From assembly GCA_028716265.1 (NCBI GenBank), contig JAQUQD010000031.1, positions 1-34,083 of the forward strand: a DNA stretch of 34,083 nucleotides, written 5' to 3'. The position numbers and the translations under genes are program-made. Shown piece by piece: positions 9,600-28,353 of the stretch. The notes beneath the pieces are model-generated. The model worked only from the letters and a program-made list of their open reading frames with translations, was not told the origin of the DNA and searched no databases. Source of the stretch: Bacteroidales bacterium (GTDB taxonomy: Bacteria > Bacteroidota > Bacteroidia > Bacteroidales > JAGONC01). Position 1 is the stretch's first letter, and each line of letters starts with the position of its first letter.

Positions 9600-10829
9600 A
9601 TGGACATACAGACCATCAAACAAAGGTTCGGTATCATCGGGAACTCCCCTCTGCTTGACAGGGCCATTGACATTGCCCGGCAGGTGGCGGCCACCGATAT
9701 TACGGTCCTGATCACCGGTGAAAGCGGGACGGGGAAGGAAGTCTTTCCCAAGATCATTCATCAGCTCAGTGCCAGGAAACACGGACCCTACATCGCTGTC
9801 AACTGCGGCGCCATCCCTGAAGGGACCATCGACTCGGAACTCTTCGGGCATGAAAAGGGAGCTTTCACCGGAGCGCATGAATCAAGGAAAGGGTATTTCG
9901 AGGTGGTCAACGGTGGGACGATCTTCCTGGATGAAGTGGCAGAACTTCCGCTTTCGACCCAGGTAAGGTTGTTACGCGTCCTGGAAACAGGTGAATTCAT
10001 GCGTGTCGGATCATCCAGGGTGATTAAAACGGATGTGCGCGTAGTGGGAGCCTCCAATGTGAACATACCGGATGCCATTCATCAGGGAAAATTCCGCCAG
10101 GATCTCTATTACCGGCTCAATACGGTGCCGATCTTCGTCCCAACGCTGAATCAGCGGAAAGAAGATATCATTCTCCTGTTCCGGAAATTTGCCTCAGATT
10201 TCGCTGAACGTTACCGCATGCCATCCATCCAGATGAGCGAAGAGGCCCAGGACTACCTGACCAATTACCATTGGCAGGGCAATGTCAGACAGTTGAAAAA
10301 TGTGACGGAACAAATATCGATCATTGAAGAGAACCGGTTCATCACTCTGGAAACACTGAAAAAATACCTGCCTGACAAGCATTATACGGAACTTCCGGTC
10401 CTATATAACAGCGAGCCTTCCAGGAACGGCATTTCTGAAAGAGACTTGTTGTACAAGGTGCTCTTTGACATGAAAAGGGATATCAATGACCTCAAACGGC
10501 TGATGGCTGATATCATGCAACCGGAAGGCGACAGCCATGTGATCCGGGAAGATGACACCCATATCCTGCAGCAACTCTACAATGACATAAATCCTTTCCC
10601 GTCAGGGATACCGGAGGTGCAGATCCATCCCAGGAGCAAGGTGCCGCTCGAGGAGCCCATCCAGCCCTCGGAAGTCCTCGAAGAATCCCTATCACTCGAG
10701 AAAAAGGAAATGGATATGATCAAAAAAGCCTTGGAGAAACACGCGGGCAAACGTAAGAATGCAGCACGGGAACTGGGAATCTCCGAACGCACGCTCTATC
10801 GAAAGATCAAGGAATATAACATTCAGTGA
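9600..10829 (+). CDS. Sigma-54 interacting AAA+ transcriptional regulator (Fis-type HTH), no receiver domain
   Basis: GESGTGKE Walker A, GAFTGA loop, [26 protein letters not shown]-terminal [27 protein letters not shown]+ begins about 40 aa from the N-terminus. Confidence 0.93.
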
Positions 10830-12167: not shown

Positions 12168-12494
12168 ATGGCTGCATATATTCTCATATCGGTGCTAATC
12201 TTGGTAGCGTGTGTCCTCCTGGGACTTATCGTATTGGTCCAGAATCCCAAAGGAGGAGGACTGGTTTCCAATTTCTCCTCATCCAACCAGTTCATGGGTG
12301 TGCGTAAGACGGCCGATTTTCTGGAGAAAGCCACATGGACACTGGCGGTGGCCCTTCTGGTGCTGAGCCTAACGAGCATCCTGATCATCCCGAGGAACAT
12401 GAGGGCCTCTGAGGTGCCTCAGAGCGAGATCCAGCAGAGGGTACAGGAAGGTACAGCCATACCGGTGGATTATAAGGCACCTCCTGAAGAATGA
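12168..12494 (+). CDS. secG: Preprotein translocase subunit SecG
   Basis: LILVACVLLGLIVLVQNPKGGGLVSNFSSSNQFMGVRKTADFLEKATW is a SecG signature. Confidence 0.92.
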   Translation: MAAYILISVLILVACVLLGLIVLVQNPKGGGLVSNFSSSNQFMGVRKTADFLEKATWTLAVALLVLSLTSILIIPRNMRASEVPQSEIQQRVQEGTAIPVDYKAPPEE

Positions 12495-12517: not shown

Positions 12518-12558
12518 AAAAAAGTGTCATAATGTCAGAACATTATGACACTTTTTTT
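12518..12558. terminator. Bidirectional-type terminator hairpin between secG and groES
   Basis: AAAAAAGTGTCATAATG-TCAGAA-CATTATGACACTTTTTTT: perfect 17-bp inverted repeat with A/T tracts at the ends. Confidence 0.85.
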
Positions 12559-12568
12559 ATTATCCGGT

Positions 12569-12586
12569 TATGGCATAAAATATGCA
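12569..12586 (+). promoter_or_regulatory. Candidate groES promoter/operator element TATGGCATAAAATATGCA
   Basis: TATGGCATAAAAT is identical to a segment upstream of hsp20; TGGCA-N7-TGCA also has sigma-54-like GG-N10-GC spacing. Confidence 0.45.
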
Positions 12587-12650: not shown

Positions 12651-12929
12651 ATGGCAAAGTTAGCTATTCAACCCCTGGCAGACCGTGTCGTTATCGAACC
12701 CTCACCTGCTGAAGCAAAAACAGCCGGTGGTCTATTCATTCCGGACACTGCTAAAGAAAAACCCCAGAAAGGAACTGTCGTGGCAGTCGGCATCGGGAAA
12801 AAGGATGAACCCATGACCGTAAAAGTAGGCGACACCGTATTATATGGCAAATATGCCGGTACTGAAATCAGCTTCGAAGGAAAGGATTTCCTGATTATGC
12901 GTGAATCCGATATCGTTGCTATCATTTAA
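12651..12929 (+). CDS. groES: Co-chaperonin GroES
   Basis: [47 protein letters not shown]. Confidence 0.97.
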
Positions 12930-12961: not shown

Positions 12962-14599
<1,638 letters not shown>

Positions 14600-27727: not shown

Positions 27728-28156
27728 TTAGTGAATCTCTATCTCCTTCGACACCTTCACCTCTTCACGCCTTTTAGGCAAGCTGACTGTCAGGATACCG
27801 TTCTCGTAATCCGCTTTGATGTGATCGCTATCAACGGATTTGGGAACGATGAAGCTGCGGCTGAACGAACCTTTTTCAAATTCAACCATGGTGTACTGCT
27901 CACTGTTCTCTTTCGTGTTACCGGATTCCACCTCAGCAGAGATCGTCAGAAGATCTTTCTCCAATTGAATGTGGAAATCTTTTTTGGCCATGCCGGGAAC
28001 CGCAAGTTCCAGCTGGAATTTATCTGCCTTTTCAATGATGTTGGTCCGGGGAAGGCATCCGCAGTTGCGATGCTCTACACGGTCGGACTCTCTTTCAAAC
28101 AGGTTGTCGAATATATCGGTGAACCTGGATGTCGGGGAAAAACGAACGATCGTCAT
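27728..28156 (-). CDS. Hsp20/alpha-crystallin family small heat shock protein
   Basis: KFQLELAVPGMAKKDFHIQLEKDLLTISAE...FSRSFIVPKSVDSDHIKADYENGILTVSLPKR; start at ATG 28156 (MTIVRFSP). Confidence 0.93.
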   Translation of the reverse strand: MTIVRFSPTSRFTDIFDNLFERESDRVEHRNCGCLPRTNIIEKADKFQLELAVPGMAKKDFHIQLEKDLLTISAEVESGNTKENSEQYTMVEFEKGSFSRSFIVPKSVDSDHIKADYENGILTVSLPKRREEVKVSKEIEIH

Positions 28157-28250
28157 ATCAATGTCCTCCTGATTGGTTAAGTTAGTTTTTTGTTGATGCT
28201 TCCTTTCGTCAAGGATTATACCAGGAGGAAAAATTGATACTTTTATTACA

Positions 28251-28300
28251 ATTTTATGCCATATTGGCATAAATTATTGAATAATAATGACATAATGACA
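28251..28300 (-). promoter_or_regulatory. Candidate hsp20 control region sharing two motifs with groES
   Basis: Minus strand contains TGTCATTATGTCA (28300-28288) and TATGGCATAAAAT (28263-28251); also palindrome TATGCCA-N3-TGGCATA at 28255-28271. Confidence 0.45.
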
Positions 28301-28345: not shown

Positions 28346-28353
28346 TATCTTTG
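28346..28353 (+). promoter_or_regulatory. Bacteroidetes -7 element TATCTTTG upstream of the S9 peptidase gene
   Basis: Exact TAnnTTTG match 25 nt before ATG 28378. Confidence 0.5.

Follow-up and report, generated by a model that had tools for sequence, protein, structure and literature searches.

A 13-bp palindrome, TGnCAnnnTGnCA, appears from comparison of upstream regions to be an enhancer that, together with a sigma-54 promoter, switches on chaperone genes throughout the class Bacteroidia. In the 34-kb window (the whole stretch of DNA analysed here) it occurs three times, every copy at groES or hsp20 (Table 1). We regard as likely a sigma-54 chaperone regulon in which a dimeric activator, most likely the enhancer-binding protein (EBP) referred to here as EBP-1, would act from the phased palindrome. 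The connection of chaperone genes with sigma-54 is already known: TSS mapping in F. psychrophilum, a member of the same phylum, placed sigma-54 promoters at groESL, dnaK, grpE-dnaJ, lon, htpG and clpB (PMC9723704), and a 2025 survey found predicted -24/-12 elements to be over-represented at chaperone gene families of Bacteroidota and Planctomycetota (PMC12316311). The F. psychrophilum SM4 promoters resemble those described here in being sigma-54 promoters on chaperone genes; they were assigned neither an upstream binding site nor an activator, and distinct activators were suggested among three PF00158 proteins (PMC9723704). The survey, in its accessible part, uses -24/-12 matrices only and names no chaperone enhancer site, spacing rule or activator (PMC12316311). 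In the literature on Bacteroidota we found nothing direct on a known activator, on helical phasing or on rpoN essentiality, and the palindrome, its phasing and the assignment of EBP-1 appear to be new.

An earlier note on this DNA had described two 13-nt motifs shared by the groES and hsp20 upstream regions and proposed a common heat-shock operator or promoter. Re-reading the sequence confirmed motif 1 as TGTCATAATGTCA near groES and TGTCATTATGTCA near hsp20 (Table 1), and motif 2 as TATGGCATAAAAT at 12569-12581 (+) and 28263-28251 (-). Motif 1 is one form of the palindrome. A genome-wide scan, which the note had suggested as a check, singled out the two loci: the 3.09-Mb genome contains TGTCATWATGTCA exactly twice, once upstream of groES and once upstream of hsp20; TGTCATNATGTCA has three exact matches, namely those at groES and hsp20 (A or T at the mid-position) plus the intragenic TGTCATCATGTCA; and allowing one mismatch to TGTCATNATGTCA gives 18 sites, of which those at groES and hsp20 are the only intergenic ones by ORF calls. 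Motif 2 likewise has two perfect genome copies, both at these loci, and its near matches are only modestly more frequent than the control (111 genome sites with up to two mismatches vs 80 for the reversed pattern).

The two copies of motif 2 differ in role. The groES copy supplies the -24 part of a sigma-54 promoter; read onward, it gives TGGCA-TAAAAT-ATGCA, a GG-N10-GC -24/-12 element. At hsp20 it runs on into TGGCATAAAATTGTA, a GG-N9-G arrangement that is one off from sigma-54 spacing; its TATGGCA forms the right-hand half of another palindrome, TGCCAATATGGCA, and a good sigma-54 element, CTGGTATAATCCTTGAC, lies further downstream. A TGGCA-type -24, a TGC/TGA -12 and GG-N10-G spacing are found in both predicted promoters (groES TGGCATAAAATATGC; hsp20 TGGTATAATCCTTGA). 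Upstream of hsp20 in the congener G002 lie TGACAATATGTCA, TGCCATATTGTCA and then TTGGTATAAAACTTGAA, two palindromes and a promoter; the position is kept as the palindrome TGCCATATTGTCA, and TGGCATAAAAT is not retained. The 13/13 identity of motif 2 thus joins two different predicted elements with a common TGGCA core. Motif 2 as a shared promoter was rejected, given the difference in role and the wrong sigma-54 spacing of the hsp20 copy; what stands of the common operator is motif 1, as a common chaperone regulatory element. The reported spacings of 44 and 37 nt between the motifs are arithmetically right and disagree because different, non-equivalent elements had been compared. Just 5' of a prolyl oligopeptidase gene divergent from hsp20, TATCTTTG at window positions 28346-28353 (+) matches TAnnTTTG, the -7 box of the primary sigma factor in Bacteroidota.

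Table 1. Features of the groESL and hsp20 loci, with positions counted from the first letter of the window.
Feature	Position	Strand	Basis or remark
EBP-1, predicted receiver-less sigma-54 activator	9600..10829	+	Pfam, alignment, synteny, sole strong EBP in G006/G013/G174
EBP-1 start	ATG at 9600	+	Read from sequence
secG, upstream of groES	12168..12494	+	NCBIfam TIGR00810
Perfect terminator-like hairpin 3' of secG, enclosing the groES enhancer	12518..12558	+	RNA fold
groES putative enhancer (UAS) TGTCATAATGTCA	12525..12537	+	46 bp upstream of -24 element
Predicted groESL sigma-54 promoter TGGCATAAAATATGCA (GG-N10-GC)	12571..12586	+	Overlaps motif 2; conservation in relatives
groES	12651..12929	+	NCBIfam NF001531
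groEL	12965..14599	+	ORF; reference for synteny searches
hsp20 distal putative enhancer TGTCATTATGTCA	28288..28300	-	77 bp upstream of -24 element
hsp20 proximal putative enhancer TGCCAATATGGCA	28257..28269	-	46 bp upstream of -24 element; kept in G002
Predicted hsp20 sigma-54 promoter CTGGTATAATCCTTGAC (GG-N10-GA)	28208..28224	-	G002 ortholog TTGGTATAAAACTTGAA
hsp20	27728..28156	-	PF00011

Footprinting in related genomes, another of the proposed checks, found the motif-1 palindrome kept. Among 75 groES upstream regions (30 relatives and 45 named loci), the palindrome is present in 63 (about 0.4 expected from shuffles) and missing in its exact form from 12, a sigma-54 element is present in 73 (about 2 in shuffles), and the palindrome followed by the element is found in 62, compared with 0.02 in shuffles. 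Both were present in one of 622 other ORFs of the same loci, which served as a control. The word TGnCA-n3-TGnCA ranks first among all XXnXX-n3-XXnXX words in the groES upstream regions and is independently the top word in the pooled hsp20, dnaK and grpE regions; its third base is G in 1/91 left halves and C in 1/91 right halves, which fits dyad symmetry. The enrichment at other chaperone genes for which the earlier note had asked was found at dnaK (sigma-54 element 21/21; palindrome with at most one mismatch 21/21) and at hsp20 genes (29/30 and 25/30, respectively), and for grpE the corresponding figures are 22/23 and 16/23, the palindrome being absent from 7/23. It is patchy at clpB: the ClpB/ClpC genes of relatives have sites in 5/16 only, at distances of 24, 24, 24, 25, 56 and 56, all in phase in the sense given below, and clpB is a possible member of the regulon. 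The genome from which the window comes has this layout at groESL, both hsp20 genes, dnaK (C78) and grpE (C38), and encodes rpoN (PF04552 match G000:C40:11344-11817, E 1.3e-51), which was found in 5/5 genomes checked. That CIRCE is not apparent, as first noted for the two loci, extends to 149 chaperone upstream regions of the relatives and this genome, none of which contains it (TTAGCACTC-N9-GAGTGCTAA, up to 4/18 mismatches). About ten intergenic TGTCAAATTGTCA sites in this genome were set aside as copies of an 8-bp tandem repeat, TGTCAAATTGTCAAATTGTTAAATTG and similar forms, which often adjoins start codons, resembles the palindrome and lacks a sigma-54 promoter.

Sigma-54 enhancers are usually described as distance-flexible. 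An activator confined to one face of the DNA would be expected to lie at steps of the DNA helical repeat from the promoter, and the spacings between palindrome and -24 element are quantised in this way, at about 25, 35, 46, 56, 67, 77 and 88 bp. Distances at groES cluster at 45-47, 55-56, 66-67, 77-78, 87-90 and 109 bp, and the three copies in the window fall on these steps, the groES and proximal hsp20 palindromes sharing one spacing (Table 1). Against a uniform null, and with p-values that ignore the tree, the groES distances within 120 bp (n=46) give, for a 10.6-bp period, a resultant length R of 0.87 (p ~2e-4; p ~4e-4 for the 18 unique distances), the hsp20, dnaK and grpE distances with the phase fixed from groES (n=77) give a mean cosine of 0.72 (p <=5e-5; p 5e-5 for unique distances alone), and a further class-level set of groES promoters gives p 0.004. 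No phasing was seen beyond 120 bp. A helical rule legible over ~25-110 bp is unusual for sigma-54 enhancers.

Sigma-54 promoters require an enhancer-binding protein, and EBP-1 is the most likely candidate here, by elimination and by synteny. It combines an N-terminal AAA+ domain (PF00158) with a C-terminal Fis-type HTH and has no receiver, as seen by Pfam and alignment; its GAFTGA loop reads GSFTGA in most aligned relatives. The order EBP-lptE-TPR-secG-groES-groEL, with at most one small unrecognised gene, is kept in most of 20 relatives from the order, 19 of which have EBP-1 upstream of groESL. Among named loci, 45/80 show this synteny, many of the remaining loci being incomplete, and the same gene order is found in Pedobacter, Sphingobacterium, Mucilaginibacter, Labilibacter and Flavobacteriales. 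Bacteroides and Phocaeicola retain EBP-lptE-TPR-secG with groES not adjoining. Outside the class, the order EBP-lptE-TPR persists with groES not nearby, which suggests that the link of EBP-1 with envelope genes is the older one. A close EBP-1 homolog is found in every class member sampled.

It seems rather unlikely that the palindrome serves sigma-54 control and is bound by another NtrC-type EBP, the synteny of EBP-1 with groESL being incidental. Such a reading can point to three candidates in F. psychrophilum (PMC9723704), to the association of EBP-1 with lptE, TPR and secG even without groES, and to nine PF00158 matches in the genome of the window, some of which are probably NtrC-type EBPs with an HTH. 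With nine matches there, the elimination argument works only in relatives. By PF00158 counts, however, EBP-1 (58-60% identical) is the single strong EBP in G006, G013 and G174, and in seven further genomes EBP-1 and EBP-2 are the only strong ones. EBP-2, a second conserved EBP and the best universal alternative, is unlikely to bind DNA because Pfam scans of two EBP-2 proteins show a receiver and an AAA domain and detect no HTH, and it was rejected as the palindrome binder on this ground. In the single-EBP genome G006, UAS-like sites accompany sigma-54 elements at dnaK, grpE, hsp20 and groES, the groES site being weaker, with one mismatch; groES of G174 was looked for and not located. Two further observations concern EBP-2: in some relatives its gene lies downstream of grpE-dnaJ, at a distance of a few kb, which places an activator with no detected DNA-binding domain next to chaperone genes, and no other strong EBP was found in the 92%-complete relative G058, which gave no GroES match and which may have lost EBP-1 and groES together or may simply lack the contigs.

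A second rival reading takes the palindrome as the site of a repressor or of another response regulator such as RprY, with the sigma-54 element used separately, which we consider improbable. OmpR-type regulators usually bind direct repeats, and RprY is described as OmpR-type, while the palindrome is a dyad; helical phasing relative to the sigma-54 element, across 25-110 bp, also suits an activator better than a repressor. RprY does bind the groES, dnaK and clpB promoters of P. gingivalis by EMSA, in a study that describes no RprY site and in which CIRCE was not found at the chaperone promoters of this species (PMC3646045). It is more improbable still, to the point of being hard to sustain, that motif 1 at groES is merely the stem of the secG terminator and the hsp20 match a product of chance. 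Motif 1 at groES is indeed also the left arm of the perfect secG hairpin, which is followed by a T-run (-23.6 kcal/mol, z -6.8), and a hairpin with a T-run covers the groES palindrome in 35/63 relatives. However, the other 28/63 groES sites keep the palindrome with no terminator hairpin detected by the criterion used, no exact site at hsp20, dnaK or grpE overlaps a terminator, and the spacing is helically phased to the promoter. Because of the hairpin-free groES sites and the sites away from terminators, the palindrome appears to be under selection independently of the terminator, and its placement inside one to be a lineage feature.

In the sigma-54 model that we favour, sigma-54 RNA polymerase would transcribe a chaperone regulon that includes groESL and hsp20. 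Bound to TGnCAnnnTGnCA on a fixed face of the DNA, ~25-110 bp upstream of the -24 element, a dimeric activator would open the promoter complex by means of its ATPase. The most likely activator is EBP-1, whose gene belongs to the cluster with groESL at its end, and in many Bacteroidia, including the genome studied here, the groES enhancer would double as part of the secG terminator. The inducing signal may be heat or misfolded protein, and the receiver-less EBP-1 could be controlled by an inhibitor or by chaperone titration. Sequence shows the palindrome and the promoter, how they are conserved and phased, the synteny and the presence of rpoN; binding of EBP-1 to the palindrome we infer by elimination among genomes. 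EBP-1 is probably the master chaperone activator of the class, in the role taken elsewhere by sigma-32 or HrcA, acting through short-range, helically phased sigma-54 enhancers, without a recognisable sensory domain and in many genomes from an enhancer inside the terminator of its own cluster. HrcA/CIRCE and sigma-32 control the same genes in other phyla, the former as a repressor system and the latter as a dedicated sigma-70-family factor, whereas no CIRCE was found here. For chaperone control in Bacteroidota, the result offers a predicted binding site together with a rule for its spacing, and narrows the activator to one candidate gene. Since GroEL, GroES and GrpE were classed as essential in B. 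fragilis (PMC4072883), RpoN and the activator proposed here may likewise be essential.

EBP-1 shares with PspF and other receiver-less EBPs the N-terminal AAA+ domain (PF00158), the C-terminal Fis-type HTH and the lack of a receiver. It differs from PspF in its proposed targets, which are cytosolic chaperones, in a longer conserved linker, and in its scores, which pass no curated NCBIfam cut-off and lie well below those for PspF (268.8 bits, cut-off 443.55) and every other equivalog. The linker, at residues ~260-363 between the AAA lid and the HTH, is strongly conserved, matches no Pfam domain and is a possible regulatory region; its invariant residues in the alignment are E278, R279, Y283, K284, F287, M289, D292, L296 and K297.
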